A stretch of 47,409 bases of DNA. Origin: a virus. The stretch is taken from IMG/VR virus record IMGVR_UViG_3300029981_000017, positions 1-47,409 of that record. One strand, written 5' to 3'. The notes beneath the pieces were generated by a model that saw only the letters and a list, made by a program, of their open reading frames with translations, did no database searches and was not told where the DNA came from. Within the stretch, counting starts at the first letter, position 1. Every line of letters starts with the position of its first letter. Below, piece after piece: positions 2,690 to 47,149 of the stretch. Made by a program: the position numbers and the translations under genes.

Positions 2690-3673
2690 TTAATGCCGGA
2701 AGAAATTGTCTCCGGCGATTTGCCTTGCTTTATCTTCATCCGATGTCCGGATATACCTGAAAAAGCTTTTCTCTGTTGTGTGGCCAGTCAGTGCCATAAT
2801 CTCATAGGTTTTGATTCTGCCAGTTTGATATAGATTAGTCGCTGCGCTGCGCCGGGCAGTATGGCTGCTAATCATCTCCCACAACTGTTTTGTTTCGGTG
2901 ACCAATTTTCCACCTTTTGTGTAGTGGAAAACTACCTCTTCAATGAAACCTACTCGTTGACAAATCTTTTTGATGTAGCGGTTAAAATGTTGGATGCTGA
3001 GCCCAGGCGACACTTCACCGTCGTACTTCGTGTAAATTTCACGCACGTATTTGTGCAGCGGAATGGTTACTTTCTTGCCTGTTTTCTTCGTGATTTTGAC
3101 AATGTAATCTTTCGTGAAGTTCTCCCGGGTTAATGTTGAATAATCGGAATATCGCAATGCGGTAAGGCATCCAACAATGAACAGATCGCGGATACGTTCC
3201 TGTTTTTTAGTTAGTCCTTTAAAGTAATAAATCCGGGTGATTTCGTTCATCGATAAATAGACCGTAAAAACTTCTTCCGGATCAACCGTTACATCGTCGT
3301 AACTGGAATCAACCGCATAGCCATACTTCGCCGCTTTGGCAACCATCGCCTTCGCGAGAGAAAGTAAGGTGATGATGTACGTTTGTCTCAGGTCCTTTTC
3401 CTGCAAATACAGAATAAAGTCGTCCATAAAATCTTCACCAACGCTGTTGGTGAAAATATCAGCTTCATACTCTTCCGAAAATCCATTTAAATGATGGATA
3501 AGCGTACGATACGCTTTTCGGTAACTTTCACCCATGCGCTTTGCTTTTCGCTCCACTGTTTGAGTGATAAACTCTGTAAATAAAACTCCGGTTTTCGGTT
3601 CCGACTGGATCAGTCGATTGATGTAGTCACGTTTGCCGTTGGCGTTGTGGACTAATTTTAAAGCAGTATTCAT
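2690..3673 (-). CDS. Second tyrosine recombinase
   Basis: 327 residues from ATG at 3673, chosen because TATGGAGG precedes it at normal spacing; an upstream in-frame start at 3751 lies inside a structured leader. The SAM-like N-terminal half is followed by a complete catalytic set: Arg in CLTALRYSD, HxxR in SSHTARRS, His in LTGHTTEKS and the Tyr in FFRYIR. It is a separate transcription unit with terminators on both sides, placed between lysis and tail-spike genes. It is not a near copy of either end integrase. Bacteroidota enzymes of this type act in integration, dimer resolution or DNA inversion; the neighbourhood of repeated tail-spike domains makes local rearrangement a possibility. Its substrate is unknown. 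Confidence 0.9.
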   Translation of the reverse strand: MNTALKLVHNANGKRDYINRLIQSEPKTGVLFTEFITQTVERKAKRMGESYRKAYRTLIHHLNGFSEEYEADIFTNSVGEDFMDDFILYLQEKDLRQTYIITLLSLAKAMVAKAAKYGYAVDSSYDDVTVDPEEVFTVYLSMNEITRIYYFKGLTKKQERIRDLFIVGCLTALRYSDYSTLTRENFTKDYIVKITKKTGKKVTIPLHKYVREIYTKYDGEVSPGLSIQHFNRYIKKICQRVGFIEEVVFHYTKGGKLVTETKQLWEMISSHTARRSAATNLYQTGRIKTYEIMALTGHTTEKSFFRYIRTSDEDKARQIAGDNFFRH

Positions 3674-3704
3674 TTCGTAATTCCTCCATAAAGAAATAGC
3701 CCCA

Positions 3705-3765
3705 AGTGTGGAGCGGCTTACGAAGGCCGTCAGGCACGAATGCCCGAACACTCAAGGCTACGCCT
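3705..3765 (-). promoter_or_regulatory. Structured leader of the second recombinase (or recombinase binding site)
   Basis: Nested complementary arms: AGTGT/ACACT (3705-3709 with 3748-3752) enclose CGGC/GCCG (3714-3717 with 3726-3729) and a GGCA-cgaa-TGCC hairpin (3733-3744). A further AGGC-tac-GCCT hairpin lies at 3755-3765. As RNA on the minus strand this forms a three-way junction with a UUCG tetraloop about 30 bases before the start codon. It could regulate translation or be a DNA target of the enzyme. Confidence 0.5.
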
Positions 3766-40307: not shown

Positions 40308-40613
40308 TTAAGTAAATAAGTATCTGTCATTTTCTTCAATTATAGTTGTTGTAAACGGGAAACCGGCTTCAGGAATCTTCTGAATCACTTCAATCAGTCC
40401 GGTTGATCCGGTAAAAACTACATGCTTCCGGTTGTCAAACGATATTTGCAAACACAAACACTTTCCGGATCCTTTCTCCTTGAATACCTTTGAGTCTTCA
40501 ACTTTGAAATGATGAACTACGATCTCCCTATTGAGTATTCTCGACATCTTGATTTTGTCACCTTCAAAAGCCAGGCTTTCGACCTTGATGTTGAATTGGC
40601 TAAATGAATTCAT
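40308..40613 (-). CDS. Candidate DGR accessory protein
   Basis: 101 residues from ATG at 40613, overlapping the reverse-transcriptase stop as ATGA, so translation is coupled. An upstream frame to 40661 exists but lies inside the reverse-transcriptase gene. The product is a compact beta protein (KCLCLQISF, RKHVVFTGSTGLIEVI, FPFTTTII), not the four-helix Avd type of Bordetella phage. Constant coupling makes it a candidate DGR cofactor, perhaps nucleic-acid binding. Function is not established. Confidence 0.65.
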   Translation of the reverse strand: MNSFSQFNIKVESLAFEGDKIKMSRILNREIVVHHFKVEDSKVFKEKGSGKCLCLQISFDNRKHVVFTGSTGLIEVIQKIPEAGFPFTTTIIEENDRYLFT

Positions 40614-41560: not shown

Positions 41561-41660
41561 GCCTTTGCTTTTATTTGGTCGCTTTCGCTTTTAGCTACCA
41601 GCGCCCATTTAAATGAGTTTATTTTTTGCACTGTTGGCAAGGTCTACGCTGCCAGTATTC

Positions 41661-41742
41661 GCATAGGTGAGAGCTGACATTCGTATTCGTGTTATCGTAG
41701 TTGTAATTCGAGTTCGAAAAACTGAAACTGGAAGACAGAACT
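41661..41742 (-). repeat. DGR template repeat (TR)
   Basis: Non-coding copy between the reverse transcriptase and the first target gene. Read on the minus strand in target frame it is rich in AAC, AAT and TAC codons (Asn and Tyr), typical of DGR templates. It has 22 A in the 81 bases compared; all differences to both variable repeats fall on them. Confidence 0.95.
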
Positions 41743-41771
41743 AACAGCAACGCAGCGTACAACCTTTTATC

Positions 41772-42179
41772 TTATTCAGAATACAGAAAGTATTCTTTGT
41801 ACTCTTCCTGGAACTGTTCGGCTATATACTCAGCCTTCTCTGAGGTATCAGTGCAAAGGCGAGAGCCGACACCCGCATTCGCGCTAACGAAGTTGTAATC
41901 CGAGCCCGAAAAACCGAAACCGGAAGACAGAACCCTGTACCATGGATAGTATTTCCATTGCGATGATTTGCTCCAGTCCGGACGCCATCCGTTGTTAATT
42001 GCCAGGAATATAATCATCAGCTTATAGGCTGAAATGATCGGTTTGCGAAGGTCTTCCGGGATCATCGATACATCAGGTAGCGCTGTTGGATCAATATTTT
42101 CCTTTGCACAAGCATCTTCAAACGATTTGATTGTTCTGAAATAGAATACGGGTTGGTTTTTTATTGATTTTTTAGCCAT
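41772..42179 (-). CDS. DGR target protein 1 (variable protein)
   Basis: 135 residues. A helical N-terminus is followed by NNGWRPDWSKSSQWKYYPWY and the variable stretch at residues 83-109, framed by SSGFGFS and VGSRLC. Diversified sites are at 92, 94-103. It is a paralogue of the 158-residue product upstream, sharing the GWxPDWS and GSRLC blocks. No signal peptide or membrane segment. The pattern of constant frame and exposed loops suggests a ligand-binding fold, perhaps C-type-lectin-like, but the fold cannot be named by eye. Its gene is directly before the TR. Confidence 0.9.
   Translation of the reverse strand: MAKKSIKNQPVFYFRTIKSFEDACAKENIDPTALPDVSMIPEDLRKPIISAYKLMIIFLAINNGWRPDWSKSSQWKYYPWYRVLSSGFGFSGSDYNFVSANAGVGSRLCTDTSEKAEYIAEQFQEEYKEYFLYSE
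41853..41934 (-). repeat. DGR variable repeat 1 (VR1)
   Basis: Aligned gap-free to the TR. Fifteen of 22 template-A positions differ in 81 bases, and none of the other 59. It encodes residues 83-109 of the 135-residue target. The 3' part (coding sense GGCTCTCGCCTTTGC) is the same in VR2 and differs from the TR at three A. Confidence 0.95.
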
Positions 42180-42183
42180 GGTT

Positions 42184-42660
42184 TTATTTTTTAATGGTTA
42201 GAAATTGTTCGTAAATATCAATGAATTGCTGAGCAGCATAGTTTGATTTTTCCCTTGTTTCAAAGCAAAGGCGAGAGCCGACAGTCGTACCCGAGTCACC
42301 GAAGCCGAAAGCCGAGCACGAAAAACCGAAACCGGAAGACAGATTGAAATATGGCCAGTATTTATATTGATCGGAGTTACTCCAGTCTGGAGTCCAGCCC
42401 TGATTAATGGCTTTCACAATGATTTTCATTTTCTCATAAGCGATCGTATCATCGCTTAATCCGATATGACCAAATAGTTCATTAAACTCTTCTTCAGTAG
42501 TTCCGCATTCTTCGCAAGCATCTGCAAAAGTTTTGATATCGGTTAATTCTATTTTTTTGAAGTAGTCAGCTCCAAAAGTTTCGGTTAATACTTTCTGAAA
42601 CCACTCTGGAGCTTCAGGATAAAGCTTTTTTGCTGTTGATTTTTTAAGTGTTAATTCCAT
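42184..42660 (-). CDS. DGR target protein 2 (variable protein)
   Basis: 158 residues. N-terminal helical, acidic region, then GWTPDWSNSDQYKYWPYF, then variable residues 107-132 between SSGFGFS and VGSRLC. The C-terminus is helical (YAAQQFIDIYEQFL). It lies four bases from the start of the other target, in one operon with it. Diversification is stronger here than in target 1 (19 against 15 changes). It is soluble and not part of a recognised tail protein, so it may bind a variable host factor in the cell or be packed in the virion. Confidence 0.9.
   Translation of the reverse strand: MELTLKKSTAKKLYPEAPEWFQKVLTETFGADYFKKIELTDIKTFADACEECGTTEEEFNELFGHIGLSDDTIAYEKMKIIVKAINQGWTPDWSNSDQYKYWPYFNLSSGFGFSCSAFGFGDSGTTVGSRLCFETREKSNYAAQQFIDIYEQFLTIKK
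42265..42343 (-). repeat. DGR variable repeat 2 (VR2)
   Basis: Aligned gap-free to the TR over 79 bases. Nineteen template-A positions differ and no others. It encodes residues 107-132 of the 158-residue target. Confidence 0.95.
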
Positions 42661-44583: not shown

Positions 44584-44973
44584 ATGCTGAATTACAACAA
44601 AATACATTCAAGTATTAATTCGCAAAGAACTGCGAACAGAGGGATTGCTGAAGCGATTGGAATGCCTGAAAGTACTTTTAGAGATAGATTGAAGAAGCAG
44701 AACTTTACTCCTGACGATATAGAGAAGATTGCAGAATACTTTGGGAAGACAATATCTTATTTTTTTGACCGGGAAGAAATTGAGCAAAAGAAATATCCAA
44801 TTGAAAAGGATAAGCAACAAATTGTGGAGGATCCGGAACCGTGCCGTGATTGTGAAGTTCTACGCGATAAGGTTAAATTGTTAGAAAAAATCAACTTACT
44901 ACAGGAAGAAAAAATAGCACGGTTTGAAGGTGTTGTCGAAAAAAGAGAAGGTGCAACTCGCAATAGTGCATAA
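44584..44973 (+). CDS. Xre-like repressor (candidate prophage repressor)
   Basis: 129 residues. An N-terminal helix-turn-helix (NRGIAEAIGMPESTFRDRL, then FTPDDIEKIAEYFGKTISYF) is followed by an acidic linker and a C-terminal coiled coil (LRDKVKLLEKINLLQEEKIA) that could dimerise it. No peptidase domain is present, so release from lysogeny would not be by self-cleavage; the antirepressor in the 16-17 kb region could be the trigger. It diverges from the leftward early operon and is codirectional with integrase. Confidence 0.75.
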   Translation: MLNYNKIHSSINSQRTANRGIAEAIGMPESTFRDRLKKQNFTPDDIEKIAEYFGKTISYFFDREEIEQKKYPIEKDKQQIVEDPEPCRDCEVLRDKVKLLEKINLLQEEKIARFEGVVEKREGATRNSA

Positions 44974-45079
44974 GCGGGATAAATCGAGTGGTTTGGCGTT
45001 AATTACAATTTCTGAATTGGTATGGTGGTTTGGTGATATCATTACAGTTGTTGAAGTTATTTTTTAGAAAATTTCTCAT

Positions 45080-45472
45080 ATGATAAAGACTATTATTGTA
45101 TTAATTGCCTTGCTTTTACCCATCATTGGTAATGCTCAAGCGTTTAGATCGACCATGTATACCGAATTGAAATCAGAAGCTAAAACGACGATCTATTCGA
45201 CTGACATTATTATTACACCAACGCTTATAACCATTAAAAAGTGGTACAACGGCAAAACTGAAGATGCCAAATTAAAGGTTAACCGTAAAGTCGACCAATT
45301 ATATATGGGGACCATGTGCACTTGGTATTATTGCACCGATGTTAAAAAGGATGAGTTATCGGGAACTTATTACCAAGCGATTTGTGTATATGATAAAATT
45401 GAAAATTCATTCATTTTCGCCTCGTTTGCCGACGAGATAACCATGTATTGGCATAAATTTTACCTAAAATAA
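45080..45472 (+). CDS. Secreted protein, lysogeny-region cargo
   Basis: 130 residues with a signal peptide (MIKTIIVLIALLLPIIGNAQ, cleavage after NAQ or before). The mature part is small, basic, beta-rich with MGTMCTWYYCTDV. It lies 107 bp after the repressor gene, in the segment likely to be expressed in lysogens, where superinfection-exclusion or host-altering genes are common. Function unknown. Confidence 0.65.
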   Translation: MIKTIIVLIALLLPIIGNAQAFRSTMYTELKSEAKTTIYSTDIIITPTLITIKKWYNGKTEDAKLKVNRKVDQLYMGTMCTWYYCTDVKKDELSGTYYQAICVYDKIENSFIFASFADEITMYWHKFYLK

Positions 45473-45931: not shown

Positions 45932-47149
45932 ATGGCAAATATTAAAGTTTACCTCGATCCTAAAAAAGTGAAGAAAAGTGGCGAAGCCAGTATCTTCATC
46001 ACTGTTAACCTCAATTACAAAAAGCTTTTCTTTTTTACGGGAGTAAGTTGCATCCCTGATAAGTTTGATTTGGATAATAGCCGAATCAAGGGTGCATCAA
46101 AAAAAGTGAAGGATGATAACCTGATCATAGATCGTTGTGTGGCATCGCTAAATGATATATTCGTCAGGTACCGATTACAGAATATAGAGATCACACCCGA
46201 CTTGCTGAAGCGTGAGTGGAAGAACCCTGCCAGAAGAATAGATTTCTATGCATTCTTTGAAGAGTCGATTAAAGAGCGTAAAAACGACATTGAAGCGTCG
46301 ACTATTTCGCAACATAAATCGAGCATCGCCAAGCTGAAGGAGTTTAAACCTAAACTTTCGTTTACCGAGATTGATCACGAATTGATTGAGCAGTACCGGC
46401 GTTGGCTAAAAATCAAAAAAGGCAACGATATTAATACAATTTATACCGCACTTAAAAACTTCAAAACATATGTCAACATTGCAAAGCGCAAAGGAGTAAT
46501 CAGTGAATCTCCCTTTGATTCATACGCCATCAGGCACGCCGATACGGAGCGACTGTTTCTGGTTGAACGCGAACTGGAGGCATTGTGGTTAAGATATCTA
46601 AAGGGATGGCATACAGAAGGAAATCAGCGGGTTTTGAGGCACTTCTTATTTATGTGCTTTACCGGACTTCGGATATCGGATTTAAAAACAATTACTATTG
46701 ACAATGTTGTTGGCGACAAACTGGTCTTTTTCCCACTTAAAACCAGAAATTCAAAACGACAGGCCGTTAAAATTCCGTTAAACTATTGGGCAAAACGCCT
46801 GATTGCTGATGAAGGAGCGAAAACAGGACCGTTATTCAACTGTTTGAGCGAGGCTAAAATGAACCTGAAGATTAAAGATATTATTAAGGCAGATAAAATT
46901 TACAAAGACATCAGTCTGCATTGTGCCAGGCATACTTTTGCGACCATTTGGCTGAATAAAACGAAGGATGTGGTTGCTCTGCAGCGGATGCTTGGACATA
47001 GTGATATTTCACAAACAATGATCTATGTGCATATTACTGATGGGATGATAGTTGAAGAGATGAATAACTTCTCGGAGTCGTTATTTAAGGTAAAAACCCC
47101 CGATATAACTCGTATATCGGAGGTTAAACCTAAAATACACCTAAACTAA
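45932..47149 (+). CDS. int: Tyrosine recombinase (phage integrase), full length
   Basis: 405 residues. N-terminal arm-binding domain (1-100), core-binding SAM-like domain (about 100-195) and catalytic domain with Arg247 (TGLRISD), His330 and Arg333 (HCARHTF), His356 (LGHSDIS) and Tyr365 (MIYVHI). Codons 170-186 hold the 49-bp repeat shared with the left end. If that repeat is an attachment site, the N-terminus belongs to the phage and the C-terminus to another element or host. The 3' end overlaps a terminator for the convergent gene. Confidence 0.92.
   Translation: MANIKVYLDPKKVKKSGEASIFITVNLNYKKLFFFTGVSCIPDKFDLDNSRIKGASKKVKDDNLIIDRCVASLNDIFVRYRLQNIEITPDLLKREWKNPARRIDFYAFFEESIKERKNDIEASTISQHKSSIAKLKEFKPKLSFTEIDHELIEQYRRWLKIKKGNDINTIYTALKNFKTYVNIAKRKGVISESPFDSYAIRHADTERLFLVERELEALWLRYLKGWHTEGNQRVLRHFLFMCFTGLRISDLKTITIDNVVGDKLVFFPLKTRNSKRQAVKIPLNYWAKRLIADEGAKTGPLFNCLSEAKMNLKIKDIIKADKIYKDISLHCARHTFATIWLNKTKDVVALQRMLGHSDISQTMIYVHITDGMIVEEMNNFSESLFKVKTPDITRISEVKPKIHLN
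46440..46488. repeat. 49-bp direct repeat, right copy (inside integrase)
   Basis: Identical to bases 1-49, in the same reading frame of the integrase catalytic junction (codons 170-186). Beyond it the two genes differ strongly. Confidence 0.85.
47092..47122 (-). terminator. Terminator of the short convergent gene at the right end
   Basis: CCGATATA and TATATCGG form a perfect 8-bp stem (47100-47107 with 47113-47120), followed on the minus strand by GGGTTTTT. It overlaps the last integrase codons, mirroring the left-end arrangement. Confidence 0.7.

Follow-up and report, generated by a model that had tools for sequence, protein, structure and literature searches.

We describe a diversity-generating retroelement (DGR) whose reverse transcriptase (RT) is linked to a candidate partner protein other than Avd, whose template repeat (TR) is enclosed by a covarying RNA stem, and whose two variable repeats (VR1 and VR2) lie in small proteins of an early gene module. 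The DNA analysed, a viral record taken at its full length of 47,409 bases, is referred to below as the window. We think it probable that the element works as a DGR and forms a distinct subtype, operating by the mechanism proposed below. The textbook DGR is a tropism switcher based on an RT-Avd pair; what is of interest here is the RT partner, the enclosed template and the early targets, and one more DGR by itself is not the point.

Anatomy and activity of the retroelement

To judge from its sequence, the window is a 47.4-kb contig of a temperate Bacteroidota phage, with a temperate-phage gene set that includes an integrase, an S49-type head protease, BNR and LVIVD repeat proteins, a GH108 lysozyme and a primase. 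The closest RT outside viral contigs, at 94% identity, comes from a Prolixibacteraceae MAG. A direct repeat of 140 nt (1-140 and 46440-46579, 76% identity) lies between two integrase-like genes near the contig ends, and an additional integrase-like ORF occupies 2690-3751. The DGR cassette runs along the minus strand as T2 (carrying VR2), T1 (carrying VR1), TR and RT (Table 1), a layout common among relatives.

Table 1. Position of the window's DGR features, with the evidence for each
Feature	Position or length	Strand	Evidence or remarks
Window (whole IMG/VR record)	47,409 bases
Target gene T2, 158 aa	42184..42660	-	phrog_11581, E 6e-28; VR2 at aa ~106-133
Variable repeat VR2	42265..42343	-	19 differences from TR, all at A
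Target gene T1, 135 aa	41772..42179	-	phrog_11581, E 1e-26; VR1 at aa ~82-110
Variable repeat VR1	41853..41933	-	15 differences from TR, all at A
TR-enclosing stem, 5' arm GGUUGUACGCUG	41753..41764	-	covariation in 38 loci
Template repeat TR	41661..41741	-	mutable zone 41680-41714, with fixed-difference A's on either side
TR-enclosing stem, 3' arm CAGCGUAGACC	41641..41651	-	covariation in 38 loci
TR-RT spacer RNA	41576..41639	-	covariation; sub-threshold match to Rfam RT-17
Spacer hairpin	41627-41639	-
Spacer helix with GGUA/GAA internal loop	41594-41607 with 41576-41588	-
DGR-type RT, 316 aa	40610..41560	-	motifs GNYLSQ and YADD; phrog_1423, E 1e-130; PF00078
ORF101, 101 aa, candidate DGR accessory protein	40308..40613	-	phrog_19665, E 7.5e-10

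The original prediction placed one template and two variable repeats beside a DGR-type RT, and this anatomy was reproduced: the three repeats align without gaps, the VRs fall in two separate ORFs, and every difference from TR lies at a T of the plus strand, which is an A of the coding strand. As TR has 22 A's in its 81 positions, the chance of A-only differences is 2e-11 for VR1 and 1e-15 for VR2. The homology of VR2 stops at 42343, where the next two bases are both non-A mismatches. No third copy of the repeat was found on either strand of the window, nor did 20 shuffled windows contain a comparable match, and further VRs elsewhere in the window were accordingly rejected. The RT, besides its GNYLSQ motif, is assigned by its family profile, which scores the DGR RT of Bordetella phage BPP-1 (8ub7) at 205.7 bits versus 90.3 bits for the best group II intron RT; the BPP-1 enzyme is also the nearest solved structure.

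The A-only differences had been read as a whole as the signature of mutagenic homing, a reading that holds for their A-specificity but not for all of the sites. VR1 and VR2 have five differences from TR in common (41664, 41668, 41675, 41723 and 41729), and as these positions are nearly invariant among the VRs of the family, they represent fixed TR/VR differences rather than recent mutagenesis. Within the mutable zone, which holds 17 A's, VR1 differs from TR at 10 positions and VR2 at 14, and these differences look like mutagenesis in the sequence comparison. Each target could take about 1.2e10 different amino acid sequences through this zone, and mutagenesis there cannot produce a stop codon. 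In 102 distinct TR/VR pairs, template A's are changed in 1532 of 2208 cases (69%) and other bases in 112 of 5935 (2%). VR bases in these pairs vary at A's between -53 and -19 relative to the 3' motif and are nearly constant from -81 to -62 and at -14, -7 and -3; this near-constancy outside the central zone again marks the five differences per VR as fixed. The fixed differences of the family likewise all fall at template A's, and those at -14, -7 and -3 show IMH*-like behaviour in the family comparison. At the fixed A positions, either the cDNA normally does not overwrite the VR or selection purges the changes.

Relatives of the window phage record past activity of this DGR type. Among four near-identical loci (L009, L010, L011 and L014), VR2 differs at 9 of 83 columns, each of them a template A; the flanks differ at 7 of 1612 columns, VR1 is identical, and TR differs solely at its last two columns, outside the repeat core. 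The related-strain comparison proposed with the original prediction thus yielded A-specific VR variation over a constant TR core. In single-target relatives (L061-L063, L067/L070 and L072/L077/L078) changes are likewise concentrated in the VR, with a few non-A changes and more diverged backgrounds. We conclude that the DGR of the window is real and, from sequence comparison of its relatives, probably active.

A candidate RT partner and a structured template RNA

ORF101 follows the RT, its start overlapping the RT stop codon (ATGA), and it accompanies the RT in nearly all small-target relatives with a contig long enough. A test of this linkage that did not begin with the RT, in which viral contigs were searched with an ORF101 profile and the loci were then traced back, placed an RT immediately 5' of ORF101 in 77 of 79 loci (ANMV-1 and vir525 counted among them, and nearly all from the ORF101-only search); in the remaining two, the contig end falls inside ORF101. 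In a set of 401 whole genomes from a single family, ORF101 and RT were each present at 15 places, spread over the same 12 genomes, and were neighbours at every one. In the Bacteroides phages Hankyphage p00, BKO1-TP3 and BT-TP2, the ORF101 domain is fused to the C terminus of the RT, whereas in the window it is a separate gene; the RT of this group is very divergent, p00 and BT-TP2 branching very far away in the RT tree, and the group's main target is a very large RT-adjacent protein. A homologue also directly follows the RT of the archaeal virus ANMV-1, which differs from the window in having a single Mtd-like target (PMC4372165), and adjoins that of vir525. A restriction of ORF101 to small-target loci was rejected, since divergent homologues also follow the RT in tail-type Bacteroidales DGRs, with one ORF between; in L065, L070, L241 and their relatives this ORF is ~125-132 aa. 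ORF101 was not found in the crAss-like LMMB and cr115, nor in Perkons or LBR48. Two local variants were seen: in L075 the RT reads in frame into the ORF101 tail through an apparent deletion, and in L050 ORF101 is divided between two frames.

ORF101 has no family in Pfam or NCBIfam. Its structural model is confident (pLDDT 90) and had no significant PDB match; the weak top matches include OB-fold domains, to which we give no weight. The median pI of the family is 8.8. The BPP-1 gene bbp4, which overlaps brt, was considered as a homologue and rejected for want of homology. Avd is a common DGR accessory protein, though not a universal one, and the window gave no match with PF05635 or with BPP-1 Avd. 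Taken together, the linkage to RT, the fusion with RT and the absence of Avd make ORF101 a candidate DGR accessory factor that may take the place of Avd, as judged from gene order and homology. According to PMC10053308, the 2018 survey of DGR accessory genes by Wu et al. suggested one DGR-associated protein lacking a Pfam entry, which could be the ORF101 family; as that survey has perhaps already named the family, we claim no priority for it.

Across 38 loci, an 11-bp stem pairs the sequences just beyond both ends of TR, and a hairpin and a helix precede the RT start. In this fold 96.8% of cells are paired and 13 pairs show double changes. Double-change cells number 102; shuffles gave 27, and slid controls no more than 20. 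The spacer scaffold is like that of the Rfam RT-17 RNA (RF03020). The match of the window, which spans 95 positions and begins at the 3' arm (41644), scores 30.1 bits and so stays below the gathering score of 40.4, a score that two relatives (L042 and L056) exceed; the TR-enclosing stem lies outside the match. The spacer RNA of BPP-1 recruits RT-Avd (PMC12875486), and by analogy the spacer RNA here would have a similar role.

The window shares with the brt/avd/TR/mtd system of BPP-1 a homologous RT, A-specific TR-to-VR differences and a TR that sits between target and RT, all on one strand. It differs in carrying ORF101 after the RT and no Avd match, and in having internal VRs in two small early proteins where BPP-1 has a C-terminal VR in a tail fibre. 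In some DGRs the VR is followed directly on its 3' side by a hairpin or cruciform; a BPP-1-like hairpin at this site was not enriched in the family of the window, the mean best stem being 4.30 versus 4.05 in shuffles.

Small targets in an early gene module

T1 begins 4 nt past the T2 stop codon, and in both targets the VR ends ~25 residues short of the C terminus. Both proteins are acidic and modelled as mostly helical. The T2 model is helical at both ends, with a pLDDT below or near 50 in the VR region, and gave no PDB match. Tail-type targets have a C-terminal lectin strand to which the last 26 residues of the family VR, and these only, can be aligned (probability 90, E 1.9e-6), and at this model quality T2 may have a C-type-lectin fold. 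Relatives have one to three targets each. In L045, L057, L064 and L075 a single TR is common to three T-family targets, the third VR of L045 lying ~3.5 kb upstream, and L002 (4001-4474) and L003 have a single hybrid target with the N terminus of T2 and the C terminus of T1, as if tandem targets had recombined via their VRs.

The cassette adjoins the primase in integrase phages and MuA/MuB in Mu-like prophages, and T1 and T2 lie away from the tail genes of the window phage. Tail-type Bacteroidales phage DGRs (L065, L070, L241 and others) belong to the same RT clade but have a C-type-lectin-like target with a C-terminal VR of ~115 nt and an adjoining GH108 lysozyme gene. Early markers (primase or MuA/MuB) flank 48 of 89 small-target loci, which are phylogenetically non-independent and include at least 34 with neither kind of marker, versus none of 26 tail-type loci, a set that includes two cut loci with no classifiable target (L198 and L203). 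Any late marker is present at 7 of 89 versus 23 of 26, a comparison partly built in, as the tail target itself counts as a late marker; GH108 on its own is present at 2 of 89 versus 16 of 26.

The one TR of BT-TP2 matches two VRs. One is in gp44, a large RT-adjacent protein that, from the Hankyphage analogy, probably belongs to the tail; the other is in a T-family ORF that the annotation lacks, situated at the genome's early end. The T-family gene, with the second DGR VR, lies at 44848-45224 of PQ571279.1 (L279) and runs on at the record start, being interrupted by the record ends. In four gut prophages, a 2025 survey reported that a second VR lies far off, close to counter-defence genes (PMC12629997). 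The early-module context, the dual targets of BT-TP2 and these prophages together favour an intracellular binding role, and we infer that T1 and T2 are most likely intracellular binders with a variable surface rather than receptor-binding parts of a tail.

Alternative readings and proposed mechanism

An ordinary tropism-switching DGR, whose targets are virion or host-binding proteins merely located in the early region, would explain the lectin-strand alignment and the ability of the BT-TP2 TR to serve a large RT-adjacent protein and a T-family protein alike. It would also agree with phage DGR targets in clades 1, 4 and 6 being mostly tail proteins (PMC8144416), and an early-gene position may be compatible with a virion protein. 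We regard this reading as unlikely: the targets, of 135-158 aa, are acidic, mostly helical in the model and distant from the tail genes of the window phage, and the same cassette sits by primase or MuA/MuB in unrelated phage types. Being small, in early modules and without a demonstrable C-type-lectin fold, the targets make the usual tropism-switching role doubtful for this DGR.

That ORF101 is a phage gene hitchhiking in the DGR operon, and no part of the DGR, strikes us as quite improbable. Its persistence beside RTs on very distant branches, its fusion with the RT in a far lineage and the fact that it never occurs without the RT wherever the flank is present all oppose this idea, which draws on the inheritability of linkage (vertical inheritance of a single operon could underlie the pairing across the lineage), on the missing fold or family assignment and on the further ORF between RT and ORF101 in several tail-type loci. 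We give very little credence to the DGR of the window phage being a silent relic; its activity is indeed evidenced through relatives, yet RT, ORF101, TR, both targets and the RNA structure are all intact, and VR differences are still all at A's.

Under the DGR subtype that we favour, the T2-T1-TR-RT-ORF101 cassette would be transcribed within the early module, and the TR RNA would fold with the template in a loop closed by the 11-bp stem; the hairpin scaffold after it would recruit the RT. ORF101, coupled translationally or fused to the RT, would fill the place that Avd has in BPP-1 by binding RNA or cDNA. The RT would copy TR with errors opposite A's, and the cDNA would replace the central 35 nt of VR1 or VR2. 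The products would be two small acidic early proteins, acting as binders of, for example, host defence factors or competing phages. More tentatively, we suggest that ORF101 may be a stand-in for Avd throughout Bacteroidota phages and in some viruses of archaea, and that this subtype may diversify a pair of early intracellular proteins against host or competitor factors, a broader proposal that we consider possible but lean slightly against.

If this is true, a large lineage with another RT partner, a stem-closed template and small early targets would constitute a second mechanistic model of DGRs, and the function of non-virion DGR targets would become testable. It would also suggest what the RT-17 RNA and phrog_19665, a protein family without an assigned role, may do.
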